This document shows positions 11,617 through 46,373 of a stretch of 64,000 bases of DNA, one piece after another. Position numbers and translations under genes: made by a program. Within the stretch, counting starts at the first letter, position 1; the number at the start of each line of letters is the position of its first letter. The notes beneath the pieces are model-generated. The model was not told the DNA's origin. It searched no databases and worked only from the letters and a program-made list of their open reading frames with translations. Source of the DNA: a virus; IMG/VR virus record IMGVR_UViG_3300050120_000230, positions 276,325 through 340,324 of that record, one strand, 5' to 3'.

Positions 11617-13098
11617 GTGGGACGTAAGCAGCTAACGAAGACCTTCGATCATCGCACCGAAGAGTCCTCGATCTATCAGAATTGGGAGACTAGCGGTGCG
11701 TTCGCCCCTCGCGGCGACGGTCCTGCTTATTTTCTCCCAATGCCACCGCCGAATATCACCGGCATCTTGCACATGGGGCACGCACTTTTCGCGACCCTGC
11801 AAGACATCTCGACCCGCTATCATCGCATGAAAGGGGACGCCACGTTGTGGCTGCCGGGAAGCGACCATGCGGGCCTCGCAACGCAAGACAAGCTCGATGC
11901 TCTCATGATCGAGCAAGGGCTCGACCCTAACGGTCCAGAGTTCGATGCGTTCGCGGAAACCTACAAGCTCAGCCTGCAAGGCACGATCATGAAACAGCTT
12001 CGAAGCTGTGGTGCATCGTGTGATTGGTCCCGCGAGACGTTCACGCTCGACGACCGCTACTCCAACGCCGTCCAGACGGCTTGGAAAAAGTGCAACGACG
12101 CTGGCCTGACCTACGCCAAGGAAGGTGAACTCTTCATCAACATGGAGCCATTGGCCAAGCGTCTGCTTGACCATCTCGATGCTGGTGATCTGAAGATCAT
12201 TCCGGCCGGTGGAGAAGGAACTCTGCGGAACTTCCTGACCAAGATCGAGCCATGGAACATCAGTCGTAAAATCCGCTGGGGTCACAAAATCCCCGGATGG
12301 TTCCACGACGGGCACAACATGGTCTTCGATACATGGTTCTCGTCGGCACTCTGGCCGTTCGCCACGCTTGGTTGGCCAGACGACACCGAAGACATGCAGC
12401 GATTCTACCCGGCGGCCATGATCGAAACGGCTGACGACATTCTGTTCTTCTGGTGTGCGCGGATGCTCATGATGGGCCTCCTGCTCACCGACCGTCTGCC
12501 GTTCGACACGATCTTCCTGCACGGTTTGATCCGTGACAAGCACGGAAAGAAGATGTCGAAATCGGCTGGCAACGGCATCGACCCACTCGACATCATCGAA
12601 CGTTACGGCGCCGACAGTATGCGGTTTGCCTTGGCCGAAGCTGCCACGCCCGGTCAAGACATGAGGATGTGGGACGACAAGTTCCAAGCAGGCAAAGCTC
12701 TGCGGACGAAACTGTGGAACGCCGCTCGATATTCCTTGGCCCATTACGAACGCCTAGGAAGCCCGCAGGAGCCCTTTAAGCCCTCGAAGCACTACGACGA
12801 CGTTGAGATGGAAAAGAGGCTCACAGCGGCTCACAGGGACGCTACAGAGGCATTTGAAGAGCTACGTTACCACGAGGCTGCTCATGGGATCAGAAAGTTC
12901 ATCTTCGAAGACTTGTGTGGCTGGTATATCGAGGCCACGAAGAGCCGTCTATACGACGAAGATGACCAAGATGCTCTTCAAACCCTGATGTGGGCTCTGG
13001 ATGGCACGTTGAAGATGCTTCATCCGATCATGCCGTTCATCACTGAGCGCATTCGTGAGGCATATTCGGGCACGCCGCTCATCACAGATGCGTGGTAG
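11617..13098 (+). CDS. valS: valyl-tRNA synthetase lacking the CP1 editing domain
   Basis: A class I synthetase charging tRNA-Val. Seen: PMPPPNITGILHMGHAL (HIGH motif as HMGH), GSDHAGLATQ, RKIRWGHKIPGWF, DTWFSSALWPFATLGWP and HGKKMSKSAGNGIDPLD (KMSKS). The protein ends with the anticodon-binding helices around HPIMPFITERI. It is only 493 residues against roughly 870-950 normally. The missing part lies between KEGELFINMEPLAK and the LTKIEPWNISRKIRWGH segment, where the CP1 editing insertion belongs, so proofreading of misacylated Thr-tRNA should be absent. The C-terminal coiled-coil arm is also missing. Start GTG 11617 follows AGGAGG by 10 bases; an out-of-frame ATG at 11615 would give six residues only. 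Confidence 0.9.
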   Translation: MGRKQLTKTFDHRTEESSIYQNWETSGAFAPRGDGPAYFLPMPPPNITGILHMGHALFATLQDISTRYHRMKGDATLWLPGSDHAGLATQDKLDALMIEQGLDPNGPEFDAFAETYKLSLQGTIMKQLRSCGASCDWSRETFTLDDRYSNAVQTAWKKCNDAGLTYAKEGELFINMEPLAKRLLDHLDAGDLKIIPAGGEGTLRNFLTKIEPWNISRKIRWGHKIPGWFHDGHNMVFDTWFSSALWPFATLGWPDDTEDMQRFYPAAMIETADDILFFWCARMLMMGLLLTDRLPFDTIFLHGLIRDKHGKKMSKSAGNGIDPLDIIERYGADSMRFALAEAATPGQDMRMWDDKFQAGKALRTKLWNAARYSLAHYERLGSPQEPFKPSKHYDDVEMEKRLTAAHRDATEAFEELRYHEAAHGIRKFIFEDLCGWYIEATKSRLYDEDDQDALQTLMWALDGTLKMLHPIMPFITERIREAYSGTPLITDAW

Positions 13099-13402: not shown

Positions 13403-13678
13403 TCAGAGCGTAAGGAACATTTTCGCGAAGACAGCATCGGCCGGGACCTTGCATCCCACGATGTATTCGTAGTTCACCGAATGCATGGTGCAGAATGTCC
13501 AATCGTTCGTCATGAATGGCGCGACTGCATCTGGAAAATCAGAAGGTTTGATTTTCGAAGAGATCGTGACCGTGCATGGGAAACCATTGTCGATCATGTA
13601 TTGGAGACGTTCATCCCAATCGGCGTGTTTCTGGTAATACTCACCAGCCCATTCGCTTAGAGGAATGCACCTACTCAA
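13403..13678 (-). CDS. small protein, degenerate DAxxxKMF family
   Basis: About 91 residues. TTG start overlaps the stop of the upstream minus-strand gene. Ends in PADAVFAKMFLTL, a variant of the DAxLFKMxW C-terminal motif. Last of four tandem minus-strand genes (14506 to 13403) that all carry versions of this ending. Confidence 0.6.
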   Translation of the reverse strand: MSRCIPLSEWAGEYYQKHADWDERLQYMIDNGFPCTVTISSKIKPSDFPDAVAPFMTNDWTFCTMHSVNYEYIVGCKVPADAVFAKMFLTL

Positions 13679-13938
13679 AACCAGAACAACTTGAACATAG
13701 TTGCATCGGTCTCACTGACCGTTTCGAATGTCGGCTTGTAGCCTATGCCAGAATACCAACTGGCATTCATGTTCTCAATGCACCAGTCCCATGTTTCATG
13801 GGCCATGAAGTAGCCGTCGTTCTGGTTGCCCTCAACGAGATGGCGAGGCAAGTCGATCTTATATACGACAGGTTTCGTCGATTGGATCAGTTCGACCCAA
13901 TTGTTCAAGCCACAGTAAGATTTACCGAGAGCAATCAT
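13675..13938 (-). CDS. small protein, DAxMFKLFW family
   Basis: 87 residues, ending ETDATMFKLFWF. The central region has a WDWCIENMNASWYSG segment, which fits the family's helix-then-strand layout before the C-terminal motif. Overlaps both neighbours by four bases, consistent with a tandem cassette. Confidence 0.75.
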   Translation of the reverse strand: MIALGKSYCGLNNWVELIQSTKPVVYKIDLPRHLVEGNQNDGYFMAHETWDWCIENMNASWYSGIGYKPTFETVSETDATMFKLFWF

Positions 13939-14252
13939 AGCCAGAACGTCTTGAAGAGCACGGCGTCGCGCTCGTTGAATAGTTGAAAATGGATATACGT
14001 CTTGGGACGGGGCTCATAGTGACAGACGTTCACCAGTCCTTCTCTATTTTCCATGAGCCAGTCATAGGCATCTTGTGCTCGCCCACTGAACATGTTCGGC
14101 CCGAAGTCATAGGACGCGCGCTTCGGTGTGGCAGCCGTTCGAAGCTTCAGGCCAAACGTCGCCACGGTCACGTTGCAGAGTTCAATGATCTCTGGCGCGG
14201 GCTCATTAGCACCATCGCCCCATCCGAAAGGAAACACCGGCCTCACATCCAC
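13935..14252 (-). CDS. small protein, DAVLFKTFW family
   Basis: 105 residues, GTG start overlapping the upstream gene. Ends FNERDAVLFKTFWL. As in other members, a helix with a Trp (AYDWLMENREGLV) is followed by a short His/Tyr strand and the motif. Third member of this minus-strand tandem cassette. Confidence 0.75.
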   Translation of the reverse strand: MDVRPVFPFGWGDGANEPAPEIIELCNVTVATFGLKLRTAATPKRASYDFGPNMFSGRAQDAYDWLMENREGLVNVCHYEPRPKTYIHFQLFNERDAVLFKTFWL

Positions 14253-14506
14253 ATCAACTTGAACTGCAAGGCATCGCGATAATTGGGAATGCCCAGATAG
14301 AAAACATCTGCATTTGAATTCGGGTAAAACAGGTCCGCAAAATTTGCCTTTGCCCAGTTGAATGCGGCTTCCGCCTTTGGCTCCCAGTTATAGACTGCCA
14401 CCGGCGCGTCGCAACATTGAATGGCTTCTCGTTGCAACGCAAATACCCAGCCCGCCGCAACTTCGACCGGCCCAGAGATTTCCAAAATCGGGTCAGAGAT
14501 TTCCAT
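14243..14506 (-). CDS. small protein, DALQFKLMW family
   Basis: 87 residues, first gene of the tandem minus-strand cassette. Ends IPNYRDALQFKLMWM. Contains the family helix (AFNWAKANFADLF). Divergent from the gene at 14584. Confidence 0.75.
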   Translation of the reverse strand: MEISDPILEISGPVEVAAGWVFALQREAIQCCDAPVAVYNWEPKAEAAFNWAKANFADLFYPNSNADVFYLGIPNYRDALQFKLMWM

Positions 14507-14583: not shown

Positions 14584-15267
14584 ATGGACAAGAAGTCGAT
14601 CATCATCACGGAAGAAAGGTCGGTCACTGCGGGTTCGGAATACCTCCGCAAGACCAGAGTCAGCCGCGTCAACACTTGCTGGAAGATCGTGGACACCGAA
14701 ACCGGATTGTTCTGGAACGGATACAATGCCCAGTGCAATCACGTCGTTGGTACGCGTTTCGAACGGCGTTCATCGCTCGACGATGCCGTGAAATACTGCA
14801 TCTTGCATGGTGGATTTCCGAAGACGTGGGACGTGGTCGAAGTTCGTCTCAGCGAGACTGAGATGGGGCGCCTGCGTGGCGAGGACGTGGTCATCGACTA
14901 CCAGATCGAGACCGAACTTCCGAAAATCCTGAAGCAACGATTCTCTTGCAACGAAACTGAGACAGGACACGGCGTGACCCTGTTTCGGCGGATGCGTCGC
15001 AAGGGTGAGTTCGATGCGTGTCCGTTCATTGGCCTGCGCTCTGGGAAATATACCCATAGCTGGCCTACCTTCAAATCCGCCCTGAAGGGCGTAACCGGCG
15101 ATCTCACGGGTAGATTGCAAGCCGAGACCGGTGGTTGGGTTCTGTTCGCCGACAAGGAAGCTGCGACGATGGCGAGGTTGACCGACACGCTGAAGGGCGT
15201 GGGGGAAATCAAAGAACTCAAGATCGCATTCTCGCGCGCCATCGGTCTCCCGGTGGATCGAATCTGA
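14584..15267 (+). CDS. TGLFW-family protein (227 aa)
   Basis: Unknown function. WKIVDTETGLFWNGYNAQ near residue 37 and KGEFDACPFIGLRSGKYTHSW near residue 138 are shared with the genes at 9208, 15267 and 15965. First of three tandem paralogues, coupled by overlapping stop/start codons. Transcription from the promoter at 14550 would give a leaderless mRNA. Confidence 0.75.
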   Translation: MDKKSIIITEERSVTAGSEYLRKTRVSRVNTCWKIVDTETGLFWNGYNAQCNHVVGTRFERRSSLDDAVKYCILHGGFPKTWDVVEVRLSETEMGRLRGEDVVIDYQIETELPKILKQRFSCNETETGHGVTLFRRMRRKGEFDACPFIGLRSGKYTHSWPTFKSALKGVTGDLTGRLQAETGGWVLFADKEAATMARLTDTLKGVGEIKELKIAFSRAIGLPVDRI

Positions 15268-15968
15268 TGAAGTCTGTCGCCGTAGATTTTGAAGACGGCA
15301 TGACGCCCGCGAAACCGCGCGCTTACAAGACCGTGCGGCCGGTGAACAAATCCATGTTCAAGTTGCGCGATCCCAAGACCGGTCTGTTCTGGGGCGTCTC
15401 GTCCTCCAAGACGCCGATGTTCAACAATATCGGGAAAAGTTGGAGCACGCGCAAGTCGGCTATGCGGAACTGGGCCGAATACAATTTCGAGGGTATGCTC
15501 GCCTCTGACAATCGCGCGCCGCTTGAACTCGCTGTGTTCGAAGTGACGACCGTCGAACAGAACGTCATTCCGGTCTGTGACATTTCCATGGAAAGAGTGG
15601 CCAAGGTGGAAGCGGTTCTCGGTAAGAATGCCGGGCACTATGGGATGATCGAGTTCCTGAAGAACATTGCTCGGGAAAACAAGTTCAACGCGGCCTACGT
15701 CATCGACGCAGAGGGAAACCGTGAGTTCGCCACGCCGTCTCCCGTCCCGGCCAATATCAAGTTCCGGGACAATCTACAGCGTTCTTCCGGGCTATCTACC
15801 GATCAGTCTACCTATTTGCTTCTTGCGCTCGAATCCTTTACTGATCTCGCGTTCATGAGAATGGCAATCAGTGAGAATATTGTTGCCATCTATGACATTG
15901 ATGAGATCATCGCCCGGTATGATGGTGGCGAGCGCCATGACCGGAAGAAAAGAGGAGATGCGTTTTGA
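15267..15968 (+). CDS. TGLFW-family protein (233 aa)
   Basis: Second tandem paralogue. FKLRDPKTGLFWGVSSSKT near residue 30 is the shared motif; the middle has AAYVIDAEGNREF where its neighbours have DACPFIGLRSGK. The C-terminus has FMRMAISENIVAIYDIDE, resembling the ending of the next gene (YLRMSLGEGFVTAYDLDT). ATG overlaps the upstream TGA. Confidence 0.75.
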   Translation: MKSVAVDFEDGMTPAKPRAYKTVRPVNKSMFKLRDPKTGLFWGVSSSKTPMFNNIGKSWSTRKSAMRNWAEYNFEGMLASDNRAPLELAVFEVTTVEQNVIPVCDISMERVAKVEAVLGKNAGHYGMIEFLKNIARENKFNAAYVIDAEGNREFATPSPVPANIKFRDNLQRSSGLSTDQSTYLLLALESFTDLAFMRMAISENIVAIYDIDEIIARYDGGERHDRKKRGDAF

Positions 15969-16582
15969 AAAAGAAAAAAGCCCCTGACGCGTCGAATCCT
16001 AACTCGGAACCACGCCTCTTCAAGTTCATCGACGAAGCCACGAATCTGTTCTGGACCGGCAAACTCAAGGCCGGTGGCTCGGACGCGCTGTTCGGAGAGC
16101 GCGGGATGGAGTTTCGTTCGCGCACGGCCGCCGAGGAAGCATTCTGTAACTACGAGGTGACCCGGCTCGGGATGCCCGACCTGAACTTGCCCGAAGTCAA
16201 GATGCTGGTGTTCAAAGTTGAACTGATCGAACTCGACCGGCGGTCGTTCGATCTGGCGCCTTCGGCTGTTCGTCTCACCCGCTTTGCCATGACGCATGGC
16301 AAGCAAGATCGTCTGGTCGGATTCGTTCGTGCGCTGAGTGAGCGCGGTGCGGGCGACTTCATGGACTTTCGCTACATCGTCGCCCGCAGTCCGGCAGCCA
16401 CATTCGATCTCGCCGCCTTGACGAATGCCGTGCTGTCGTCGCGCAAGAGCGGCAAGAAACTGATCGCCATTCGATCCGACGCGGACCTTCTCTATCTCCG
16501 CATGTCGCTCGGCGAGGGTTTTGTCACGGCCTACGACCTCGACACGGCCGCACAGGTGGCCAAGAAGGAAGAGCACGCGTGA
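15965..16582 (+). CDS. TGLFW-family protein (205 aa)
   Basis: Third tandem paralogue, with TTG overlapping the stop of the previous gene. LFKFIDEATNLFWTGKLKAG at residues 15-35 is the family motif. Ends in the YLRMSLGEGFVTAYDLDT segment shared with the 15267 product. Basic N-terminus. Function unknown. Confidence 0.7.
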   Translation: MKKKKAPDASNPNSEPRLFKFIDEATNLFWTGKLKAGGSDALFGERGMEFRSRTAAEEAFCNYEVTRLGMPDLNLPEVKMLVFKVELIELDRRSFDLAPSAVRLTRFAMTHGKQDRLVGFVRALSERGAGDFMDFRYIVARSPAATFDLAALTNAVLSSRKSGKKLIAIRSDADLLYLRMSLGEGFVTAYDLDTAAQVAKKEEHA

Positions 16583-16779
16583 CTGCACAACTGACCGTCG
16601 TCCCGTCAGCCACGAAGCCCATCAACTCGATGCGCGACTGGTTGGATCAGCAGACGACAGAAGCGTTGGTGTCGGTGCGCGAATCGGTGATCGGTGATGA
16701 ACGGCGGGAGATCGATTTGGAGATCACCCGCAGAGAAATCGCCAAAGAACCCGTGCGGAAGGGGCTCAATGTATATTGA
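16579..16779 (+). CDS. small charged protein (66 aa)
   Basis: GTG start overlapping the preceding stop. Mostly helical with alternating charges in the second half (RESVIGDERREIDLEITRRE). Ends by overlapping the ATPase gene. Could be a partner of that ATPase; this is position-based inference only. Confidence 0.55.
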   Translation: MTAQLTVVPSATKPINSMRDWLDQQTTEALVSVRESVIGDERREIDLEITRREIAKEPVRKGLNVY

Positions 16780-17503
16780 GTCGTTCTCGTATCGGGGTTG
16801 GCGTGGGGCTGGCTTCAAGTTCAAGTTCACCAAAGGCGTAAACGTCTTGGTGGGGATGAACGGCTGCGGCAAAACCAACTCTGCCGAACTGTTGGCGATT
16901 CTTGTGGGTCACAAAGACGCGCACAAACTGTTGCGCGAAGACGACCAACTCAAATACGCCAAGATCGTCGTCGGCGAAGACGTGGGACCGTCTGCTACGC
17001 AGCGATACGTTTTGGAACTGAAGGACGGCATCGACCTTGAGAAAATCAACGCCTTCAAGGACTGTTTACCAACACTGACCAGTTTCGTGCTTCAGCAAGA
17101 CGATCTGCGGGATGATCGGTTCGTGACGGCTAGGCGCGAGCCGGTTGAATGCCAAAAAGACATGCTGGAATGGCTCCGCGCGCACGATCTCGATCTGCGG
17201 CTCTACGTCAAGGATGGTGAGTACGCGACATTGCTGGTTAGCGAGACCGGCGCGCAACGCTATCTGATGACCGTGGGGATGCGGCGGGCGCCGAGCGCAA
17301 CGCCGATGATCGTCGAGCATCCCGAGCGCAGCCTCCACATCATGCTGCGGAGGCGGATTGCCGATTACTATCGCGAGAGCAACGATCAGCAAGTCATCTT
17401 GACGACGCATGACCCGGAAGTGCTTAGCATGGTAGACAGTGCTCGATGGGGCACATACCACGATTGTGCCATCGACATGTCGGACAAGAAAATCAGATGG
17501 TAA
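16769..17503 (+). CDS. ABC/RecF-like ATPase with altered Walker B
   Basis: A 244-residue P-loop protein. Walker A is GMNGCGKT at 29-36 after an amphipathic IESFSYRGWRG start, as in RecF/OLD-type ATPases. A short signature-like RYLMTVGMRR is followed by PMIVEHPERSLH, where the usual DE of Walker B is replaced by EH, and by ILTTHDPEVLSMVD, the switch-like region. The family's coiled-coil arm is very short or missing. With the catalytic Glu replaced by His, ATP turnover is doubtful. Could sense DNA ends or act as a decoy. Start ATG 16769 overlaps the upstream gene. Confidence 0.7.
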   Translation: MYIESFSYRGWRGAGFKFKFTKGVNVLVGMNGCGKTNSAELLAILVGHKDAHKLLREDDQLKYAKIVVGEDVGPSATQRYVLELKDGIDLEKINAFKDCLPTLTSFVLQQDDLRDDRFVTARREPVECQKDMLEWLRAHDLDLRLYVKDGEYATLLVSETGAQRYLMTVGMRRAPSATPMIVEHPERSLHIMLRRRIADYYRESNDQQVILTTHDPEVLSMVDSARWGTYHDCAIDMSDKKIRW

Positions 17504-17961
17504 CGGTCAAGGACTTGTCTAATCTTCTCGATACGCTGGTCGTCGATGACACGCGCTCGATCATTCTCGTTCCAAAGCAAACGCCGAATCACCTAGACTC
17601 AGCGCACTCCATCCCACCGGAATATTTGTGGATGATTCCGTTGTCGGCGGCTGGACACTACATCATCCACGACCACGCCAAAGAACCAGAGGGCATACAA
17701 GCATTTGAGCATTGTAGGTCACCGATCATTCAATACGATTTGTATGATGACCGTAGCTTCAGCTACCAGCGCACTCGTCTCCACGACATGGGCATGACAC
17801 AGTGGTGCGAAGAAACCCTTCGCGGCCACTACATCGTGCGTAAGAACTATGAGGCGGTTTTGCCGCCGCCGAGCGTCAAAACGATCATCGAAGTCTGGTT
17901 CGATGACCCAGTGGACGCCGTGGTTTTCAAGATGCGATGGAAGGGCAACCCATGCGAATAG
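17497..17961 (+). CDS. DAVVFKMRW-family protein (154 aa)
   Basis: ATG 17497 overlaps the ATPase stop. Larger than most family members, with an N-terminal DLSNLLDTLVVDDTRS helix and a long middle. The family unit is C-terminal: MTQWCEETLRGHYIVRK, then WFDDPVDAVVFKMRW. Coupled to the next gene. Confidence 0.7.
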   Translation: MVTVKDLSNLLDTLVVDDTRSIILVPKQTPNHLDSAHSIPPEYLWMIPLSAAGHYIIHDHAKEPEGIQAFEHCRSPIIQYDLYDDRSFSYQRTRLHDMGMTQWCEETLRGHYIVRKNYEAVLPPPSVKTIIEVWFDDPVDAVVFKMRWKGNPCE

Positions 17962-18254
17962 AGGATCGCCCGAACATCGCTCTTTCGCATCTTGACCTTC
18001 AAGATGGCAGGCACGAGGACATCAGCGATCTGCCTATCGTCGTCGTGCCGTTGAAAAACGTCTGTATTTCTGGTGGCAGCCTTGCATTGGCGCCCGAGAC
18101 TAGGCATTGGCTAATTGCCAACGTCGGCCACCAATATCGTGGCGAGCAGATTTCGTGCTGGGATTATATCCTCGCAGAGAGCGCCACCGGGCTCGCGACG
18201 TTTCGGTTCAAAGACGTAACGCACGCCACCTTGTTCAAAATGTTCTTCTCATGA
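17952..18254 (+). CDS. HATLFKMFF-family protein (100 aa)
   Basis: ATG overlaps the end of the preceding gene. C-terminal FKDVTHATLFKMFFS matches the DAxLFKM pattern with His for Asp. The middle has the family helix (ETRHWLIANVG). Directly followed, again with overlap, by the LNxLLKMF tandem array. Confidence 0.7.
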   Translation: MRIEDRPNIALSHLDLQDGRHEDISDLPIVVVPLKNVCISGGSLALAPETRHWLIANVGHQYRGEQISCWDYILAESATGLATFRFKDVTHATLFKMFFS

Positions 18255-18508
18255 GTTCCGATCTGGATCGCGTGGCCGAATTGAACACGTTGATGAAGAT
18301 GTTCGGCATCGACGGGAAAGTCATGTTTTTCCCAAAAAACTCGCTGCCCTTTCATCTCCAAGGGATTTTTCACGGCGTGCATCAGGGAACCTCACGTAAC
18401 TCGGTGGCCGAGATCGAACAGTTCGTGCAAGACCTCATCAACGAGGACAAGGCGCCGGGCTTGGGCGTGCAACTGCAAACGACCATCGCCAAGCGTGCTG
18501 CGAAATGA
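18251..18508 (+). CDS. LNxLLKMF-array protein 1 (85 aa)
   Basis: First of eight tandem small genes sharing an N-terminal helix of the form ELNTLxKMFgi and a C-terminal helix. Here: RVAELNTLMKMFGID near residue 7 and EIEQFVQDLINEDK near residue 54. Between them is a strand-rich segment. Function unknown. Overlaps neighbours by four bases each. Confidence 0.7.
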   Translation: MSSDLDRVAELNTLMKMFGIDGKVMFFPKNSLPFHLQGIFHGVHQGTSRNSVAEIEQFVQDLINEDKAPGLGVQLQTTIAKRAAK

Positions 18509-18750
18509 TCCGCGATGATTATTACCGCGATGTGTGCCCGCGCATTGGTAAGCTCAACGTGCTCCTTAAGCTCTACGATCTTGGGGAGATCACGGTTGGG
18601 ATGACGGCCGACTATCGCCAGCAATTCACTCATCGAATTGGGGCACCCGAGCACGAGAATTACACGGTGCGCTGGACGCTGGATTCCATCGAACACCACG
18701 TCAATCTGCTGATCGGCATAAAACAGCGAAGGATTGCAAGTGGCGAGTAG
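18505..18750 (+). CDS. LNxLLKMF-array protein 2 (81 aa)
   Basis: Carries GKLNVLLKLYDLGEI at residues 15-29 and the C-terminal helix SIEHHVNLLIGIKQRR. Same layout as its neighbours. Start ATG overlaps the preceding TGA. Confidence 0.7.
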   Translation: MIRDDYYRDVCPRIGKLNVLLKLYDLGEITVGMTADYRQQFTHRIGAPEHENYTVRWTLDSIEHHVNLLIGIKQRRIASGE

Positions 18751-19084
18751 CGAACTCGGCGCGGCGCTCGAACGTCTTGGTGTTGAGCCGAAAGCGCATC
18801 TCGGTGGTTATCGCACGACGCTTGAGCGGTTCGACCACATCAACACGCTCTTCAAAATGTTCGGCATAAAGGCCGAAGCCGGTATCCGCGCGCCAATGCC
18901 GTTTGACGACTATCGATATTTCAACATCATCGTCGAGATCACAACGGTGCACGACAGTGGCACGCAGATCACCCGCATGGGCTATCCCTTCAAGACGACC
19001 AATGAGCTTGCGGCCTTCGCCGACACTCTGATCCGGCGCGCTCAGGGCCTAGAACCAGAAATCGAAGAGTGGCGCCATGCGTGA
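18740..19084 (+). CDS. LNxLLKMF-array protein 3 (114 aa)
   Basis: GTG 18740 is preferred because AAGG lies about seven bases before it; the frame also offers TTG 18734. It has DHINTLFKMFGIKAE, a strand region (YRYFNIIVEITTV) and a C-terminal helix (TNELAAFADTLIRRA). Overlaps the previous gene by 11 bases. Confidence 0.65.
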   Translation: MASSELGAALERLGVEPKAHLGGYRTTLERFDHINTLFKMFGIKAEAGIRAPMPFDDYRYFNIIVEITTVHDSGTQITRMGYPFKTTNELAAFADTLIRRAQGLEPEIEEWRHA

Positions 19085-19271
19085 TGATCGCATGGACGAA
19101 TTGAACACCCTATTGAAGACGTTCGATACGGGTCTAAGCGTCGAGCCGTTTTCAGGCGGGTATCCGCCGACCAGCTATGCCCTGCTCGAAGACAAGTTGA
19201 TCGTCTTCATCGGCGCTTTTGAGGCAGTCGAGAAAATGGGGCACAGCCGAATGACAGAGCAAAACCAGTGA
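19077..19271 (+). CDS. LNxLLKMF-array protein 4 (64 aa)
   Basis: Shortest member. DELNTLLKTFDTGLSVE at residues 7-23, then a Gly/Pro turn region, then LLEDKLIVFIGAFEAVEK. It has the shared N-terminal helix, but the C-terminal helix motif is weaker, so it may be a truncated copy. Confidence 0.65.
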   Translation: MRDDRMDELNTLLKTFDTGLSVEPFSGGYPPTSYALLEDKLIVFIGAFEAVEKMGHSRMTEQNQ

Positions 19272-19567
19272 AGCGGATGTCGATCACCGAGCGGGATGCC
19301 GAGATCAAGGCGCTCAACGTTCTTTTCAAGATGTTCGACATCCACGCCGTGGCTCATTACGACGAGGGTAAACCGAACAGCAATGCCGGATGCTGGCGGC
19401 CGTATCCCTTTCGGATAGGGACCTTCGAGACGACCGAAGGGACTGGTGCTCGTGCCGGATCGTTGCGCGAAAAGATGACAACGAAATACATGTTCTATTC
19501 GCTGCAAGAACTCATCAAACAGGTCCATATCATGGTCAGCGAACATCAAACGAAAGAAGTCGCGTGA
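19268..19567 (+). CDS. LNxLLKMF-array protein 5 (99 aa)
   Basis: GTG overlaps the previous stop. KALNVLFKMFDIHAVAHYDEG at residues 14-34, a central strand region with an FRIGTFETTEG segment, and the C-terminal helix SLQELIKQVHIMVSEHQ. A full-length member. Confidence 0.7.
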   Translation: MKRMSITERDAEIKALNVLFKMFDIHAVAHYDEGKPNSNAGCWRPYPFRIGTFETTEGTGARAGSLREKMTTKYMFYSLQELIKQVHIMVSEHQTKEVA

Positions 19568-19851
19568 CCTGTCCAATTCGTTCGGCAAAAGCGAAAGAAG
19601 CGTGGGCGAGGCGGCGGCAGAGAAACGACCGCTGCGACGAGTTGAACACGCTGCTGAAGATGTTCGACCTGAACTTCGTGACCGGCTATGCCGACCGTGA
19701 GCGGCGAATGTCGAAACAGGAGTTCAACGACTATCGCTATCGGCTATATGGCATGGGTCCGGCCATTTCGATGGAATACTTCCACACGCTCGAAGACCTC
19801 ACACGGCGAGTGAACGTGCTTATCGGAGAGGTGTCCGGTGTCCGAGTTTGA
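19564..19851 (+). CDS. LNxLLKMF-array protein 6 (95 aa)
   Basis: GTG overlaps the previous stop. A basic N-terminal helix (AKEAWARRRQRND) precedes DELNTLLKMFDLNFVTGY. Then a strand region YRYRLYGMGPAISMEYFHTL, and the C-terminal helix LEDLTRRVNVLIGEV. Confidence 0.7.
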   Translation: MTCPIRSAKAKEAWARRRQRNDRCDELNTLLKMFDLNFVTGYADRERRMSKQEFNDYRYRLYGMGPAISMEYFHTLEDLTRRVNVLIGEVSGVRV

Positions 19852-20251
19852 ACACGAGCTTGCGAAGCTGCAAACAGTCTTTGATACACGAGCACACGAA
19901 CTCGAAGAGCTTGGGAAACTGCAAGTCACTTTGAAGATGGCTGGCAAGGCGGGCGATGTCGCCCATTACAAATATGGGCCGGGCTTCGTCTTCCGATGCT
20001 GGTGGCAAACAGGCAGCGGTGGCAGGGGATTCGAAGAAGACGAGTATTTCGAGGAACTAGATGAACTGAAGAAGCGCGTTCACGCTATCGCCACCGGTCA
20101 CATCGCGGCGAGGGCCGACCCGAAAACAAATTCCATCGACGAGACGGCTATTGAGCCGCTTTTTGTCTCAAGTTCACGCTGGGCGCCTTTCGCCGAACTG
20201 AACATCCAACGCGCAATGCAGAAGCACAAACGTGACAACGGAGGAATATAA
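19838..20251 (+). CDS. LNxLLKMF-array protein 7 (137 aa)
   Basis: Long N-terminal helix, then ELGKLQVTLKMAGKAGD, a divergent copy of the array motif. The middle has KYGPGFVFRCWWQTG and FEELDELKKRVHAIATGH, corresponding to the strand segment and C-terminal helix, followed by a 50-residue extension. GTG start inside the previous gene. Confidence 0.6.
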   Translation: MSEFEHELAKLQTVFDTRAHELEELGKLQVTLKMAGKAGDVAHYKYGPGFVFRCWWQTGSGGRGFEEDEYFEELDELKKRVHAIATGHIAARADPKTNSIDETAIEPLFVSSSRWAPFAELNIQRAMQKHKRDNGGI

Positions 20252-20483
20252 AATCTGGGCCGCCGTGACCCATGACCGCGTCGAGGGATTGCGCGTCTTG
20301 GTGAAGTTGTTCGGCGGCAAACTGCACTTAGGATTCCACGACGTTTGGGTCACGCCTAACGGCCCGGTGTGGCGACAGTTCTTTTCCGCTGTCGGAACAA
20401 ACCTCACTACTTTCGACACTTTCGAAGAGCTTGAGACTCACGTCAAAACGACCCTCGCTGAAAAACTTGATGTCGTTGACTAA
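20232..20483 (+). CDS. LNxLLKMF-array protein 8 (83 aa)
   Basis: Last member. VEGLRVLVKLFGGKLHLGFHD is a drifted N-terminal motif; the C-terminal helix is FEELETHVKTTLAEKLD. The stop overlaps a CTAAATA late-type element. Start GTG 20232 overlaps the previous gene by 20 bases. Confidence 0.65.
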   Translation: MTTEEYKIWAAVTHDRVEGLRVLVKLFGGKLHLGFHDVWVTPNGPVWRQFFSAVGTNLTTFDTFEELETHVKTTLAEKLDVVD

Positions 20484-20486: not shown

Positions 20487-20528
20487 AATGTTGACGGGCC
20501 GATTCCGGTCCTTCATAAAGAACATACT

Positions 20529-20660
20529 ATGACAAACGCACGCACCATTTTCGGAACCGCCAACGCGCCCCTCGGGCGCGATTGCGGCGATATGGGCGGT
20601 CGGGGCGAACGAGAACTTCGCGCCGGGATGGTTCGTCATGGTGTTCTGACCAGCTTCTAA
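20529..20660 (+). CDS. possible small peptide (43 aa)
   Basis: ATG 42 bases after a CTAAATA element, reading MTNARTIFGTANAPLG and ending VLTSF. Composition is Gly/Arg-rich. No clear ribosome-binding site and no family, so it could be non-coding leader sequence for the tRNA cluster. Confidence 0.35.
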   Translation: MTNARTIFGTANAPLGRDCGDMGGRGERELRAGMVRHGVLTSF

Positions 20661-20692
20661 AAGCAGTCACTCCCCCAAAAATCGAAACCGTT

Positions 20693-20722
20693 CCGGCGAC
20701 CAGTGGAAATCCCACTGGCCGG
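20693..20722 (+). other. hairpin upstream of tRNA cluster
   Basis: CCAGTGG (20700-20706) pairs with CCACTGG (20712-20718), flanked by a CCGG/CCGG extension. No T-run follows. It could be a processing site or terminator just before the first tRNA. Confidence 0.45.
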
Positions 20723-20748
20723 ACGATTGTCCAACTTCAAATGACAAT

Positions 20749-21299: not shown

Positions 21300-21587
21300 C
21301 TACATCCATTTCAGCTTGAACAACGTCGCGTCATTCAATGACTCGAAGTGCAGAAGGAAAGCGAACTCAAGGCCGCCTTCCTCTTCCCGCGAGACTTGCA
21401 GCGAGAGATAGACATCTTCGAGCATCGTCTCCCGAAGCCACGTCTTGATGTCAGGATTGAAAGCGGTGATCTCGGAATCGCTCAGGCCGCCATCCACACA
21501 AAACGGCGAATCGCACGGCAACTCGACGCGGATCAGATCATTCACGATCTGCGGTGGGTGCGGATGTTTGATGAACAGTTCGGCCAT
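21300..21587 (-). CDS. DATLFKLKW-family protein (95 aa)
   Basis: Minus-strand gene right after the tRNA cluster, ending ESLNDATLFKLKWM. Middle has the family helix (DIKTWLRETMLEDVYLS). Start ATG 21587 is eight bases from the oppositely oriented late promoter at 21595. Confidence 0.75.
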   Translation of the reverse strand: MAELFIKHPHPPQIVNDLIRVELPCDSPFCVDGGLSDSEITAFNPDIKTWLRETMLEDVYLSLQVSREEEGGLEFAFLLHFESLNDATLFKLKWM

Positions 21588-23874: not shown

Positions 23875-25812
23875 ATGACCGAACCCTACGATCACGCGAC
23901 CGTCGAGCAGAAATGGCGCCAGTTCTGGGCGAAATCACGCCTGTTCGATCAGGCGCTCGCAAGCCGGACGAAGACGAAATACTACGTGCTGGAAATGTTC
24001 CCGTATCCCTCGGGTCGCATCCACATGGGGCATGTCCGCAACTACGCCATCGGCGACGTGCTGGCGCGCTACAAGCGCAGCCAAGGCTTCAACGTGCTTC
24101 ATCCCATGGGCTGGGACGGCTTCGGCCTGCCCGCTGAGAACGCGGCCATTGAAAATGGCACGCACCCTGCGGACTGGACGTTCGCCAACATCGCCGCCAT
24201 GCGTGAGCAATTGAAGCGTCTGGGCTTGTCCGTGGACTGGACGCGCGAAATCGCGACTTGTGACCCGGCGTACTACGGTGAGCAGCAAAAACTCTTCCTG
24301 CGGCTGCTGTCCGCTGGTCTCGCCTATCGCAAAGAAAGCGAAGTCAACTGGGACACCGTGGACAACACTGTGCTGGCCAACGAACAGGTCATCGACGGTA
24401 AGGGCTGGCGCTCGGGTGCACCTGTCGAGAAGCGGATGCTGACCCAGTGGTTCTTCCGAATCACCAACTACGCCGATGAACTGCTGGACGGTTTGAAGAC
24501 CCTGTCGAACTGGCCGGAGAAGGTCAAGACGATGCAGCAAAACTGGATCGGCAAGGACGAAGACGGCAACACGATGCTGCGCGACTGGGGCGTGTCTCGG
24601 CAGCGGTATTGGGGTTGCCCGATCCCGGTGATCCATTGCACCGAGTGCGGCATCGTCCCGGCCGAAACGCCGGTGATCCTGCCAAAAGATGTGGACTTCA
24701 CAATCCCCGGCAACCCGCTGGCCAACCATCCGACGTGGAAACACGTCGCGTGCCCGACGTGCGGCGAGGATGCGACGCGTGAGACCGACACCATGGACAC
24801 GTTCGTGGACTCGTCGTGGTATTTCGCCCGCTTCGTCAGCGCCGACCCCGCGAACCCGATCTGCGATGCGGGCATCGATCATTGGATGCCGGTCGATCAA
24901 TATGTCGGTGGTATCGAACACGCCATCCTGCATCTGCTGTATGCCCGGTTCTTCACCAAAGCGTTGCGCGACACGGGCTGTTGGCGAGTGGACGAACCAT
25001 TCACCGGGCTGTTCACGCAAGGCATGGTCACGCACAAGACCTATCGAACCGTGATCGGCAAGGAATGGGTCTACCCGGAAGAAGTGACCCTCAACAGCGA
25101 CGGCGTCACGGCCAAGATGACCGCCACCGGACTTCACGTCGAAATCGGCGCGGCCGAGAAGATGTCGAAGAGCAAGAAAAACGTCGTCAGTCCTGACGCG
25201 ATCTTCGACAAGTATGGCGTCGATGCCGCCCGCCTGTTCGTGCTGTCAGACAGCCCGCCGGAGCGCGATTTCGTGTGGTCCGAAGCTGGTGTCAAAGGCG
25301 CCGCAGGATTCATCCAGAAAGTCTGGAACGTCATCAACGAACCCGATGGCGTGCCGGACCAAACCAACATCATCCTGACCCACCAGACGATCAAGGACGT
25401 GACCGATTGTCTGGACAACTTCAAGTTCAACAAAGCGGTCAGTCTCCTGCATGTTTTCGTAGCCGGGATCACCGGTAAGGCCGACGTGGCGACCAAGAAA
25501 ATTCTGATCCAACTGATCTCGCCGATGACGCCACATCTGGCCGAAGAGGCATGGCACGATCTCAAGGGTTGCTACTCCATCGTGGATGAACCGTGGCCGA
25601 CGTTCAATCCCGCTCTGTTGGTGCCGCCGAACGTCACCATGCCGGTGTCGGTGAACGGCAAGCGCCGCAGCGAGATCGTTGTCCCGCTGGATCACGCCGA
25701 CGACTTGGTCATCGCCATTGCGACGGCTGATCCCGAAGTCATGCGCTTCATCGGCGATGGTGTGAAGAAAGCCATCGTCGTCAAGAACCGCATCGTAAAT
25801 CTGGTGGTGTGA
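23875..25812 (+). CDS. leuS: leucyl-tRNA synthetase lacking the CP1 editing domain
   Basis: A 645-residue class I synthetase against about 860-880 normally. Seen: [22 protein letters not shown] (HMGH), [48 protein letters not shown], the zinc-type CTEC and CPTC pairs, [13 protein letters not shown], and [14 protein letters not shown] (KMSKS). The segment [25 protein letters not shown] shows the missing part: the roughly 190-residue CP1 editing domain normally inserted between NWIG and RDWGVSRQ is deleted. So charged Ile/Val mistakes would not be corrected. The C-terminal anticodon/extension domain ([13 protein letters not shown]) is present. Ends in GTGTGATG coupling to the next gene. Confidence 0.95.
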
Positions 25813-27897: not shown

Positions 27898-28285
27898 ATA
27901 TCATCCGCTCGACAAAGAGCGTCCCACCACAGATGTGACGAACGAAGAGTTGATGCAAATCCTCTCGGGCGAAATCTTGCCTCGGGATGTTCACTGGCAG
28001 CGTTGGCAAAAAGAACGTGTCAAGAGGATGAAGGCTGCGCGCCTCGATTTCACGGGTCATCTGAAAACGTTTCATACTCGCGAACTGATGCAAATGCATC
28101 GCGACGGTAGCATTCAGGGGTGGGCCAATTTCGGCATTCTCGCCGAGGTGAGTTATAGCGAAAAAATCGAAACCATGGTGCGAGCGGAACTCGCGACTCG
28201 TGAGCACATTCCGAACAAAACCGAAGCCAAGGCACTGCGGAGGGCCGCCGCCACGAAGCATCATGGCCCTAGGAAGCGCGCATGA
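27890..28285 (+). CDS. paralogous basic protein B (131 aa)
   Basis: Begins MAEYHPLDKERPTTDVTNEE, then LMQILSGEILPRDVHWQRW, the same motif as the previous gene. Ends HIPNKTEAKALRRAAATKHH-GPRKRA. It lacks the C-terminal extension of its neighbour. Overlaps it by eight bases. Confidence 0.65.
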   Translation: MAEYHPLDKERPTTDVTNEELMQILSGEILPRDVHWQRWQKERVKRMKAARLDFTGHLKTFHTRELMQMHRDGSIQGWANFGILAEVSYSEKIETMVRAELATREHIPNKTEAKALRRAAATKHHGPRKRA

Positions 28286-28632
28286 CGGCTAGCGCAATGA
28301 ACACGGCTGCAATTTTGAAGATGGCTGCGAAAATACATCTCAACAGTCACTATCCGAAAATGTCCCAACGCTTCGCGCCAATCTATGGCGCCGCCACGAA
28401 TTATCTGGAAGACCGGCGGCCGGACATCACGGAATATTCGTCGGCGGGCTACCGTCTGTTCATCCTGAAAACGGATGGAGAAACTCCTTCCCCTCGCGCG
28501 GCCGAAGCCGTGCAATGGCTCAGCGACAACAAGATCGTCCATGAGTATGAATTCCAGCTTACGCGGAACTCGATTTGGATTAGGTTCCCTCGTGGAGAAG
28601 ACGCCGCCCTGTTCAAATTGTTTTGGATGTGA
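28282..28632 (+). CDS. DAALFKLFW-family protein (116 aa)
   Basis: ATG overlaps the preceding stop. Family layout: helix RAAEAVQWLSDNKIVHEY, a short strand, and PRGEDAALFKLFWM at the C-terminus. An extra N-terminal half precedes the domain. Confidence 0.7.
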   Translation: MTASAMNTAAILKMAAKIHLNSHYPKMSQRFAPIYGAATNYLEDRRPDITEYSSAGYRLFILKTDGETPSPRAAEAVQWLSDNKIVHEYEFQLTRNSIWIRFPRGEDAALFKLFWM

Positions 28633-31112: not shown

Positions 31113-31555
31113 TGGGCGCGCAAGAACTCTGGAAGCTGGCCAACAATTTCGACGACTTGGGCGTGGTGACATCGAAGCCGCGTATCGGCTCCATTGGCTC
31201 GCGTTGCGAGCACCATTACGTCACGCACATTCGCGACAGTGGCGATGCGGCGGCCTATGCCGACATGACCTTCCTGACGGCGATGGATATCTTCCAGCGC
31301 ATCCAGCGATTCGAAGTTCGCGACGAACGCAATCGTCTCGCGCTCGAACTGCTCAAAGCATCATCGAAATGCGAGTGCAACGTTCTGCGTCTTTGGACGC
31401 CGAGGGGCAACCCGAACGACTCCAAGGGCACCTACGTTTTTCCGAAGACCGAACACGACGCGGCGGTGTTCGCGATCTTCTTCAATGAGACCGACCCGGC
31501 GATCTGGCGGCACGAACGTATCGGTGAACCGAGGATGTTCTTTTTCAACCAATGA
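31112..31555 (+). CDS. DAAVFAIFF-family protein (147 aa)
   Basis: The segment FPKTEHDAAVFAIFFN corresponds to the DAxLFKM motif, here with AI in place of FK. It is internal, followed by 25 residues. Upstream helix VRDERNRLALELLKAS. Function unknown. Confidence 0.65.
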   Translation: MGAQELWKLANNFDDLGVVTSKPRIGSIGSRCEHHYVTHIRDSGDAAAYADMTFLTAMDIFQRIQRFEVRDERNRLALELLKASSKCECNVLRLWTPRGNPNDSKGTYVFPKTEHDAAVFAIFFNETDPAIWRHERIGEPRMFFFNQ

Positions 31556-31833
31556 CTTTCGTGCTAAGTAGGCCGATGGATATTCGTTGTTCCCCTCGTG
31601 ACTCGACCAACCAACAGGAAGACGCCTTTCTGATTGAGGGACCGTGGGCAGAAATTGCCTACGTCCTGAAATGGATCGCGGCGAACTGTTCGACGGTATG
31701 GGAAAGCAATTTCATTCCGAATGGGAATTACGGGCCGGGAAATGTCTCCTACAACGTCAAGTTCAAGGATGAACGTGACGCTATTTTCTTCAAGATGATG
31801 TGGCATGGGCATAGTTTCTCGGAAGTTGCGTGA
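31552..31833 (+). CDS. DAIFFKMMW-family protein (93 aa)
   Basis: ATG overlaps the previous stop. KDERDAIFFKMMW near the C-terminus, with the family helix IAYVLKWIAANCSTVWES. Overlaps the next gene by 29 bases. Confidence 0.7.
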   Translation: MTFVLSRPMDIRCSPRDSTNQQEDAFLIEGPWAEIAYVLKWIAANCSTVWESNFIPNGNYGPGNVSYNVKFKDERDAIFFKMMWHGHSFSEVA

Positions 31834-32098
31834 CGCATTCCTGAAGCCGGAATGGCAGTTCGTGGAAGGCAATAAGATGCCTAGCGCGTGGGAGGATGAA
31901 CCTCCGGCGTGCGGTGGCCTATGCTACCTCGAAGATGAAGTTGCCCAATGGTGCAGGGAGAACTACACCAAGCCTCCCACAATCTGGTTCCTCGATCTGA
32001 CCGACTATGACAAGTGGGTTCAGAATTGGTTGATCGATTTTCGCTCCGAGGCCGACGCCCTGCTCTTCAAAATGCGATGGAGTGATTATCGGCGGTAA
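31805..32098 (+). CDS. DALLFKMRW-family protein (97 aa)
   Basis: Ends FRSEADALLFKMRWSDYRR. Family helix EDEVAQWCRENYTKPPTIWF. Stop lies just before the promoter at 32100. Confidence 0.7.
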   Translation: MGIVSRKLRDAFLKPEWQFVEGNKMPSAWEDEPPACGGLCYLEDEVAQWCRENYTKPPTIWFLDLTDYDKWVQNWLIDFRSEADALLFKMRWSDYRR

Positions 32099-42884: not shown

Positions 42885-44825
42885 GTGCGTTCAGACCTAT
42901 TCGATATTTTCAAGGAAAACTTTACGAAGTCGAAAGTTGAGATGATGGAGTTGGAGGAATACCTCGAACTCTGCAAGACCGACAAGCTGGCCTATGCCAC
43001 CTCCGCAGAGCGCATGGTGCACGCAATTGGCGAACCCAAACGACTCGACACGGCCTCCGATGCCCGTCTCTCCCGAATCTTCCTCAACCGCACCCTGAAA
43101 GTCTACCCGGCTTTCAAAGATTTCTTCGGCATGGAAGACACCATTGAGCGGGTGGTCTCCTTCTTCCGCCACGCCGCACAGGGTCTCGAAGAGCGTAAGC
43201 AAGTGCTCTACCTGCTGGGGCCGGTCGGCGGCGGCAAGTCCTCCATGGCCGAGCGCCTGAAGGAATTGATGGAAGCATACCCCATCTACGTTCTGTGTGC
43301 GGGCGATGAGATGAGCCCGGTCTTTGAGACCCCGCTCGGCCTCTTCCCGGCCGACAAATATGCCAGCCTGATGAGCGAGCGTTACGGTGTCGAGAAGCGT
43401 TACCTCAACACGATTCTCAGCCCGTGGGCCGTGAAGCGCCTGCGTGGTTTCGACGGCGACATCTCCAAGTTCAAAGTGGCCAAGGTTTGGCCGTCACGTC
43501 TGGAACAGATTGCGATTTGCAAGACCGAGCCCGGCGACGAGAACAACCAAGACATCTCCTGCCTCGTGGGCAAGACCGACATTCGTCAGCTTGAGCACTT
43601 CTCGCAGAATGACCCGGACGCCTACTCGTTCTCCGGCGCTCTGTGCCGGGGCAACCAAGGCATGATGGAGTTCGTGGAAATGTTCAAGGCGCCGATCAAG
43701 GTGCTTCACCCGCTTCTGACGGCTACGCAAGAAGGCAACTACGTTGGCACTGAGGCGATCAGTGCGATCCCGTTCAACGGCATCGTGCTCGCGCACTCCA
43801 ACGAAGCCGAATGGCAGACCTTCAAGAACAACAAGAACAACGAAGCGTTCATCGACCGCATCTGCGTCATCAAGGTTCCCTACTGCCTGCGCGCGACAGA
43901 AGAACAATCCATCTATCAGAAGATGATTAACTCTTCTGATCTGGGCAAGGCGCCGCTGGCTCCTGAGACCCTGAAGATGCTGTCGCGGTTTTCCGTCCTC
44001 AGCCGCCTGAAGGATCACCAGAACTCGAATCTGTGGTCCAAGATGCGCGTCTATGACGGCGAGAACATGAAGGAAGTCGATCCGCGCGCCAAGTCGGTGC
44101 AAGAATATCGCGACGACGCTGGCGTTGACGAAGGCATGAACGGCATCTCGACGCGGTTCGCGTTCAAGATTTTGTCGGCCGCCTTCAATTTCGACAACGA
44201 AGAGATCGCCGGTGACCCGGTCCATCTGATGATGGTGCTGGAAAATGCGATCCGTCGCGAACAGTTCAGCAGCGACATCGAGAAGAAGTATCTCTCGTTC
44301 ATCAAGGAAACGCTGGTGCCCGAGTATGCCGACTTCATCGGCACCGAAATCCAGACGGCGTACCTCGAAGCCTACGACGATTACGGTCAGAACCTCTTCG
44401 ACCGCTATATCGACTATGCCGACCACTGGATGGAAGACATCGACTTCAAGGACCCGGACACCGGCAACTTGTTCAACCGCGAAATCCTCAACAACGAGCT
44501 TGAGAAGATGGAGAAGCCTGCCGGGATCGCTAACCCGAAAGACTTCCGTCATGAAGTCGTGAACTTCGTCCTTCGGATGCGGGCTCGCGAGGGCAACAAC
44601 GCGGTGAAGTGGACCTCTTACGAAAAGCTCAAGCGGGTGATCGAGAAGAAAATGTTCTCGTCCGTCGAAGAGCTTTTGCCGGTCATCTCGTTCGGCGCCA
44701 AGCAGGACAAGGATACCGAGAAGAAGCACAAGGATTTCGTCTCGCGCATGGAAAGCAAGGGCTACACGGCTCGGCAAACCCGTCGCATTGTCGAATGGTA
44801 TATGCGTGTCCGCAAAGCGGGTTAA
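42885..44825 (+). CDS. prkA: PrkA family serine protein kinase
   Basis: A 646-residue AAA-type P-loop kinase like PrkA/YeaG, which phosphorylates target proteins in bacterial stress responses. Walker A is GPVGGGKSS at 112-120, in the typical context LERKQVLYLLGPVGGGKSSM. Further family landmarks: GALCRGNQGMMEFVEMFKAP, LLTATQEGNYVG, ILAHSNEAEWQ, FIDRICVIKVPYCLR. The C-terminus carries the PrkA kinase-like domain (LRMRAREGNNAVKWTSYEKL). Length is normal. Followed by the MbcA-like, YeaH and SpoVR genes, the usual partners. Confidence 0.95.
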   Translation: MRSDLFDIFKENFTKSKVEMMELEEYLELCKTDKLAYATSAERMVHAIGEPKRLDTASDARLSRIFLNRTLKVYPAFKDFFGMEDTIERVVSFFRHAAQGLEERKQVLYLLGPVGGGKSSMAERLKELMEAYPIYVLCAGDEMSPVFETPLGLFPADKYASLMSERYGVEKRYLNTILSPWAVKRLRGFDGDISKFKVAKVWPSRLEQIAICKTEPGDENNQDISCLVGKTDIRQLEHFSQNDPDAYSFSGALCRGNQGMMEFVEMFKAPIKVLHPLLTATQEGNYVGTEAISAIPFNGIVLAHSNEAEWQTFKNNKNNEAFIDRICVIKVPYCLRATEEQSIYQKMINSSDLGKAPLAPETLKMLSRFSVLSRLKDHQNSNLWSKMRVYDGENMKEVDPRAKSVQEYRDDAGVDEGMNGISTRFAFKILSAAFNFDNEEIAGDPVHLMMVLENAIRREQFSSDIEKKYLSFIKETLVPEYADFIGTEIQTAYLEAYDDYGQNLFDRYIDYADHWMEDIDFKDPDTGNLFNREILNNELEKMEKPAGIANPKDFRHEVVNFVLRMRAREGNNAVKWTSYEKLKRVIEKKMFSSVEELLPVISFGAKQDKDTEKKHKDFVSRMESKGYTARQTRRIVEWYMRVRKAG

Positions 44826-45024
44826 CGGCTACGAAGCCGAGGCCGAAGAAGTGATCGCTCTCGCCGAAACATGGCTCGGGAGTAGAGAACAAGCTGAGAC
44901 ATGGTTCCGAACGGTTCCTATCTCAGCCTTCGGCTGCCGAACTGCAAAACAAATTGTGTTCATGGGCAATGGTGTCGCGGCGAAAGCCTACGTCGAGCAT
45001 CTTGCCACTGGTGGTTACGCGTAA
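44806..45024 (+). CDS. MbcA/ParS-like (DUF2384) antitoxin-type protein
   Basis: 72 residues from GTG 44806, overlapping the PrkA end by 20 bases and the YeaH start by one base. AETWLGSREQAETWFRTVPI, then CRTAKQIVFMGNGVAAKAYV-EHLATGGYA, matches the toxin-binding domain of Xre-MbcA-ParS antitoxins (A.exxFGxREKAexWLxxP.xxLGxxTPxxL). There is no HTH and no RES-type toxin gene beside it. Could bind a host toxin or PrkA/YeaH partner. Alternative start upstream (TTG 44788). Confidence 0.6.
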   Translation: MSAKRVNGYEAEAEEVIALAETWLGSREQAETWFRTVPISAFGCRTAKQIVFMGNGVAAKAYVEHLATGGYA

Positions 45025-46373
45025 TGTCTGACGGCTTCATCATCATCGACCGACGCAAGAACCCGAAGGCAAAGAGCCTCTCCAATCGGCAGAGGTTCGT
45101 TGCTCGGGCGAAGAAATCCATTCGCGATTCTGCCAAGCGGGCGCTCGTCGGGAAATCGATGAGCGACACTGGCGACACCTACATCAACGTGCCCGCCGAT
45201 GGGATTGAAGAACCGCATTTCCGGCATGATCCGAGCGTCGGCGAATATGATTACGTCCTCCCCGGCAATCAGGAATACATCGTCGGAGACATGATCGGCA
45301 AGCCGCCCAAACAAGATGGTGGCGGCAAAGGCGGTGGTAACGGCGAAGGTGATGGTGGCGAGGACGAGTTCAATTTTGCATTGTCCTACGAAGAATATCT
45401 GAACGTCATTTTTGACGATCTGGAACTACCCGATCTCATCAAGAAGACAGAACGTAATACCATTGCGTTCGTGAACCGCCGAGCGGGATATACCGCGAGC
45501 GGGATGCCATCCAATCTCAACGCCGAGCGCACGGCGGTGGCCGGGATGGCGCGGCGGATCGCCCTCAAGGCGCCGAAGATGAAGCGCATCCACGAACTTG
45601 AAGCTGAACTTGCCGATCTGATGGAGATTTCGGAGGTTCAGGTCTTCGGTGGCGAGGACAAAGTTGAAACGAACCGACGCATTTTGGAACTCGAAAACGA
45701 GATCACCTCTCTGCGAGCTAAGGCCACGGCCATCGCCTATCTCGACAACGTGGACATGCGCTACAACAATTTCGTCAAGCAGCCGAAGCCGATCACCCAA
45801 GCGGTCATGTTCTGCATGATGGACGTGTCCTATTCGATGGGTGAGCGCGAGAAAATCATCGCAAAGAAGTTCTTCATTCTGCTGCATCTGTTCCTTAAGC
45901 GCCGATATGAGAACATCGACGTGGTCTTCGTTCGTCACCACGACAAGGCGGAAGAGTGCGATGAGGACACGTTCTTCACCGGCCGCGTGAGTGGTGGCAC
46001 GGTGGTTTCGACCGGCTATGACAAAATCAAAGAAATCATCGCTTCTCGCTACAACAGCGAGGATTGGAACATCTATATGGCTCAGGCTTCGGATGGCGAT
46101 AACTTCACCAGCGACAATGATCGCGTGACAAAAATGCTGAGCGAAGACCTTCTGCCTGTCGTCCAGCATTTCACCTATATCGAAATCGAGGACGGTGAGC
46201 GTGCTCAGTTCATGTCGAACTATGGCATCCTGAACTCCAATCTCTGGCAAACCATCGAGCCATTGACCAAGCAATTCGACAACATATCTTGCGCGAAAAT
46301 TGAACATGAGCGCGATGTCATTCGCGTCTTCCGCAAGCTCTTCAACAAAGACAAAAAACGGAGCGAAGCGTGA
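45024..46373 (+). CDS. yeaH: YeaH / DUF444 family protein
   Basis: A 449-residue protein with the YeaH/YhbH pattern: IIDRRKNPKAKSLSNRQRFV, an acidic-Gly linker (GGGKGGGNGEGDGGEDEF), a YPDLIKKTERN segment (LPDLIKKTERNTIAFVNRRA), and a von Willebrand-like part with FCMMDVSYSMGEREKIIAK, FFILLHLFLKRRYENIDVVF and SGGTVVSTGYDKI. In bacteria it works with PrkA and SpoVR in stress adaptation. The MIDAS-like DVSYS is intact. Confidence 0.95.
   Translation: MSDGFIIIDRRKNPKAKSLSNRQRFVARAKKSIRDSAKRALVGKSMSDTGDTYINVPADGIEEPHFRHDPSVGEYDYVLPGNQEYIVGDMIGKPPKQDGGGKGGGNGEGDGGEDEFNFALSYEEYLNVIFDDLELPDLIKKTERNTIAFVNRRAGYTASGMPSNLNAERTAVAGMARRIALKAPKMKRIHELEAELADLMEISEVQVFGGEDKVETNRRILELENEITSLRAKATAIAYLDNVDMRYNNFVKQPKPITQAVMFCMMDVSYSMGEREKIIAKKFFILLHLFLKRRYENIDVVFVRHHDKAEECDEDTFFTGRVSGGTVVSTGYDKIKEIIASRYNSEDWNIYMAQASDGDNFTSDNDRVTKMLSEDLLPVVQHFTYIEIEDGERAQFMSNYGILNSNLWQTIEPLTKQFDNISCAKIEHERDVIRVFRKLFNKDKKRSEA

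Follow-up and report, generated by a model that had tools for sequence, protein, structure and literature searches.

The eight small genes at positions 18251-20483 of the window (the whole stretch of viral DNA that was analysed, 64 kb in length and covering positions 276325-340324 of a 415,409-base virus record) are paralogs that derive from one ancestral gene via repeated duplication, a conclusion that is well supported. The family they form is real, undescribed in the libraries searched and ordinary in kind, namely an old accessory paralog family. The best explanation, held tentatively at a probability of about 0.42, is a tandem, operon-like set of accessory proteins, soluble and small (64-137 aa), which would serve in host takeover or counter-defence and descend from one duplicated alpha-beta-beta-beta-alpha ancestor. 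Confidence in the functional part of this explanation is below one half.

Layout and kinship of the array genes

All eight genes (g1-g8, Table 1) are open reading frames on the plus strand that fill the array without gaps, each overlapping the next by 4-20 nt. The overlap is a 4-nt ATGA or GTGA at g1-g2, g4-g5 and g5-g6, and 11, 8, 14 or 20 nt at the remaining junctions. The stop codon of the gene upstream of the array is also overlapped by g1, and the whole has the layout of small genes in an overlapping, co-directional operon. A promoter scan gave scores no better than those of shuffles (within about 1.4 sd). Further upstream, a stand-alone AAA ATPase gene (AAA_15/AAA_21) is conserved beside the array in this phage and in the related phage described below. 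Six tRNAs follow the main array, g8 being the final gene ahead of them. The copies vary in charge and size, and half are acidic or neutral. The shortest is g4, in which the C-terminal helix is poorly matched, and the most divergent is g7, which carries a C-terminal extension. The neighbouring ATPase itself shows partial matches to the defence-system ATPases MADS3, AriA and GajA.

Table 1. Coordinates of the array genes and of other features. Positions are those of the window unless a prefix is given; E is the leave-one-out profile value.
Feature	Position	Strand	Description	N-terminal motif	E	Ortholog in G001
g1	18251-18508	+	85 aa	LNTLMKMFGI	3.5e-5	none
g2	18505-18750	+	81 aa	LNVLLKLYDL	7.7e-5	none
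g3	18740-19084	+	114 aa, GTG start	INTLFKMFGI	5.9e-9	L023:9850-10110(-)
g4	19077-19271	+	64 aa	LNTLLKTFDT	1.6e-4	L023:9594-9857(-)
g5	19268-19567	+	99 aa, GTG start	LNVLFKMFDI	3.5e-8	L023:9308-9601(-), 60% identical
g6	19564-19851	+	95 aa, GTG start	LNTLLKMFDL	9.7e-11	L023:9051-9311(-)
g7	19838-20251	+	137 aa, GTG start	LQVTLKMAGK	0.76	L023:8723-9058(-), 44% identical
g8	20232-20483	+	83 aa, GTG start	LRVLVKLFGG	1.7e-4	L023:8472-8741(-), 37% identical
Ninth copy	G000:359410-359655	-	outside the window			
Ninth-copy locus	L044:6862-7652 (~G000:358862-359652)	-				
AAA ATPase gene	16694-17503					
Stretch absent from G001	17824-18904	.	end of 17446 gene, whole 17937 gene, g1, g2, start of g3			
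FKM/W member	13675-13938	-	profile match			
FKM/W member	14243-14506	-	profile match			
FKM/W member	17446-17961		profile match			
FKM/W member	17937-18254		profile match			
FKM/W member	21300-21587	-	profile match			
FKM/W member	28282-28632		profile match			
FKM/W member	31552-32098		profile match			
FKM/W member	56765-58233	-	profile match			
FKM/W member	62171-62407	-	profile match			
FKM/W members	L012:190-2299	-	profile matches			
RNA-like element	20514-20748		between g8 and tRNA-Asp			
ORF inside element	20529-20660		43 codons			
Synthetase-like protein	11617-13098		class I			
Synthetase-like protein	23875-25812		class I			
Three tandem genes	14584-16582		starts 14584, 15135, 15965			
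PrkA/YeaG-like gene set	42885-47854					

A six-frame scan of the window finds the pattern [LIF][NKRQT].L[LMFTVI]K[MLTAI][FYA] seven times, each time within the array; g7 (LQVTLKMA) falls outside even this loose form. In shuffle tests 19 of 28 gene pairs score at p<0.01, with g7 the weakest partner. Because a profile built from the array genes themselves is circular, each gene was removed together with its ortholog, the profile was rebuilt, and 1,258 six-frame segments of the window were searched. Every left-out gene outranks all 1,250 non-member segments, seven of the eight at E<2e-4 and g7 at E 0.76, while the best non-member stands at E of at least 0.12. The initial annotation had described eight adjacent, overlapping genes with an N-terminal LNxLLKMF-type motif, and the ORF map, motif scan and profiles agree. 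Its proposal of repeated duplication of one ancestral gene is likewise upheld by the leave-one-out profiles and the shuffle tests.

The predicted structures are consistent with this. The AlphaFold model of g6, made with 15 family sequences, consists of a helix, three strands and a helix (pLDDT 79.5, pTM 0.69). The g7 model was aligned with its own ortholog only, because the rest of the family could otherwise impose its shape, and has the order H-E-E-E-H-H with an extra C-terminal helix (pLDDT 69.6, pTM 0.62). The shared order of elements in these two modelled copies matches the helix, strand-rich centre and C-terminal helix that had been proposed, and for these two copies speaks against different folds. 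For g7 the predicted fold is moderate evidence of family membership, which is weak by sequence and is moderately supported by position, ortholog and predicted fold taken together.

Chance or composition, by which unrelated small ORFs would owe their motif to codon bias, has a negligible probability as an explanation of the array. Only g7, without significance by sequence, speaks in its favour. The E values of the other seven, obtained against segments of the same DNA, the shuffle tests and the matching predicted fold of g7 all speak against it, and for seven of eight genes it is already refuted. Codon composition as the sole source of the motif, a possibility raised at the outset, is accordingly excluded for those seven, but for g7 not by sequence alone.

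Profile searches of Pfam, PHROGs, NCBIfam and PADLOC, at curated or otherwise reasonable thresholds, assigned the array proteins to no known family. The best family match is that of the g3 ortholog to phrog_14664 (E 0.0021), a family of no assigned function. A single PDB sequence match, to one esterase chain (E 0.025 over 57 residues), was taken as chance, and a fold search of PDB and BFVD returned nothing below E 0.001.

Orthologs, age of the copies and selection on the middle

The nearest relatives found are three IMG/VR contigs (G001, G002 and G003). The ValRS-like synthetase is 80% identical in G001, a contig of 59 kb, and about 70% identical in G002 and G003. The tail sheath is 42% identical to that of Sinorhizobium phage Phosso and 40% to that of Agrobacterium phage Atu_ph07, both giant phages of Rhizobiales, and the PrkA-like kinase is ~60% identical to those of 630-640 kb megaphages. 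In the window the PrkA/YeaG-like serine kinase is followed by a SpoVR-like gene and then another large gene, a set resembling the bacterial PrkA-YeaH-SpoVR set. The window also encodes two class I aminoacyl-tRNA synthetase-like proteins (Pfam tRNA-synt_1, Anticodon_1), and three tandem genes appear to be another paralogous set. The second and third of these (15135 and 15965) cross-match; G001 and G003 contain counterparts of the set, and G002 contains some of them.

In G001 the neighbourhood consists of the AAA ATPase gene, the array and the same six tRNAs in the same order. Its array has six members, which are one-to-one counterparts of g3-g8 in order; the copy-number comparison with a related phage that the initial annotation had proposed thus gives eight in the window against six in G001. 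Each shared copy matches its ortholog in the other phage better than it matches any neighbouring copy. The duplications are therefore older than the divergence of the two lineages, and the copies are old and stable. In the tree the ortholog pairs of g4, g7 and g8 are strongly supported, and the deep order of duplication is without support. The copy best conserved between the phages is g5.

The difference in copy number is best explained by a 1.08 kb deletion on the G001 side, which truncated both flanking genes. There the homology to the 17446 product ends at residue 126, and that to g3 restarts at residue 56, ~6 nt on. No counterpart of the 17937 gene, g1 or g2 is present at this junction or in the other G001 stretches examined. 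The G001 homolog of 17446 is without the C-terminal FKM.W end, and the g3 ortholog is without the N-terminal LNxLxKMF helix. Since both flanking genes are truncated relative to their own families, loss in G001, which is one assembled contig, is more likely than gain in the window phage. Loss of part of the array is apparently tolerated in G001.

Across the six ortholog pairs the N-terminal motif is 68% identical, the middle 44% and the C-terminal helix 37%; the middle alone reaches 66% in g5 and 56% in g7. Whole-gene dN/dS, where computable, is 0.16-0.39 (rough Nei-Gojobori estimates, with dS near saturation), and the middle of g4 gives 0.71 over only 21 codons. On these rough estimates the array genes are under purifying selection. 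The middle neither evolves faster than the frame nor reaches a dN/dS of 1; each copy keeps its own middle, which is not hypervariable, and the differences in the middle from copy to copy go back to an ancient divergence of the copies. An array that is still expanding and diversifying, with a middle selected to vary as in an arms race, is therefore very improbable. It could draw on the middles, which hardly align from copy to copy, and on the unequal copy number of the two phages. However, orthologs retain their order and identity, the middle is better kept between phages than the C-terminal helix, dN/dS lies well below 1 and the copy-number difference looks like loss, so that at this evolutionary distance such a reading is largely refuted. 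Selection for a variable middle, as claimed in the initial annotation, failed, divergence between old paralogs having been taken for current diversification.

Spread of the family and neighbouring elements

Beyond the window, the 415 kb genome holds a ninth copy, which was absent from the first profile yet matched at 1.8e-4. Its locus is just upstream of tRNA-Cys and tRNA-Ala, on the same strand. A truncated 'tenth copy' beside it (L011:1190-1435, minus strand) is unsupported at E 38. Both loci of the array family are upstream of tRNA genes, which, with two cases only, may be chance.

This position is the reason for considering a family of small dsRBD-like domains acting on tRNA or other RNA, a reading that is quite improbable. 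The order of secondary-structure elements is that of the dsRBD, the main array precedes six tRNAs as the ninth copy precedes two, and a few dsRBDs occur among the non-significant fold matches. However, those matches have E above 1 and TM of about 0.3-0.4, so that the array proteins, unlike true dsRBDs, fail both the fold test and the sequence test (no dsRBD Pfam match). The acidic or neutral character of half of the copies also counts against RNA binding, as does the possibility that two loci lie near tRNAs by chance.

No confident member of the array family was found in G002, G003, the five LR7xxxxx megaphages, Phosso, Atu_ph07, SCTP-2 or PA5oct, and the family is therefore narrow in the collections searched. 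With g1, g6, the g5 pair or the g7 pair as query, viral_contigs yielded no contig but G001, and genome_contigs gave no match to the g5 pair; among the relatives found, G001 alone carries the array. Four further matches were rejected as members: Pseudomonas phage HRDY3 (E 0.6, antisense inside an annotated gene), LR756503 (E 0.03, too weak), LR756504 (weak, in a frame with stops) and SCTP-2 (weak, 13 residues).

A second, very large family comprises small proteins whose C-terminus reads 'F....DA.LFK(M/L).W'. At a profile cut-off of E<=0.1 the 415 kb genome yields 73 matches, the 59 kb contig G001 and G003 yield 14 each, Phosso yields 48 and the five LR7xxxxx megaphages yield none. None of 21 members has a PHROG match at E 0.01. 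Two of its genes lie directly upstream of g1, and the members in G001 include an overlapping tandem array of eight. Like the array, this FKM/W family consists of small paralogous genes, partly in overlapping tandem arrays, with a short K-containing hydrophobic motif, although this motif is at the C-terminus and that of the array genes at the N-terminus. Kinship between the two is not supported by profile comparison (six shared columns, 11% probability).

The element between g8 and tRNA-Asp is 96% identical to G001 over 235 nt, while the neighbouring genes are only 37-60% identical in protein. It has a folding energy z-score of -3.9 and contains a short ORF. No Rfam family covers it; in viral_contigs it was found in G001 only, and the phage collection holds no real match. 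It may be a structured RNA or serve the tRNA cluster as a leader. The 73-copy FKM/W family and this conserved RNA-like element may merit more attention than the array.

Possible function of the array

The array's job is probably interference with the host cell, and we infer that its products are accessory host-interaction proteins with one role per copy. One alpha-beta-beta-beta-alpha protein would have been copied in tandem by old, repeated duplication. All copies would retain the scaffold, consisting of the N-terminal helix with its conserved N/R and K and the C-terminal helix, and the three-strand part of each would have settled on its own partner. The set may thus act like an accessory host-takeover or counter-defence module whose small proteins each bind a different host factor, and the gene overlaps would couple their production. 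The accessory reading is favoured by the lack of members in the other large phage records searched and by the dispensability of part of the array in G001. Differences in charge and size among copies fit different partners but prove none. Against the functional reading, no family, fold or partner match in the libraries searched points to a function.

Nearly all copies carry an N or R at motif position 2 and, one helical turn further on, a K at position 6. No other polar positions recur, and these two may reflect a common contact or merely a requirement of the fold. A common contact would suit an unlikely alternative, in which all copies use the shared N-terminal helix to dock on a single component of phage or host, with the sheets as modulators; the proteins would then be subunits or adaptors of one complex, possibly structural. 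The N-terminal motif is indeed the best conserved part both between copies and between orthologs, but fold constraints alone give the same pattern. No known complex is in evidence, and the array is distant from any obvious virion gene block as well as partly dispensable in G001.

An analogy for host takeover through separate targets is Bacillus phage SPO1, whose 26-gene takeover module consists largely of small early genes directed at separate targets in the host (PMC6873191). Like such modules, the array groups small genes of mostly unknown function into operons within a large phage. Several SPO1 gene products act on separate host processes (PMC6873191). In contrast to the SPO1 module, the array is made up of genes that are paralogs of one another. 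Membership in a takeover module is defined by timing and targets. It is unlikely that the array is a modular binding toolkit in the full sense, a tandem-copied, phage-specific alpha-beta3-alpha scaffold with each sheet re-specialised to a different host target, supplying a whole takeover or counter-defence set.

What looks by eye like an arms-race expansion proves, on comparison with the related genome, to be a set of long-established genes, each conserved in its own right. Should the copies bind different host factors, a single scaffold would give a compact route to several host targets; if not, the array simply adds another to the unnamed accessory families of giant phages.
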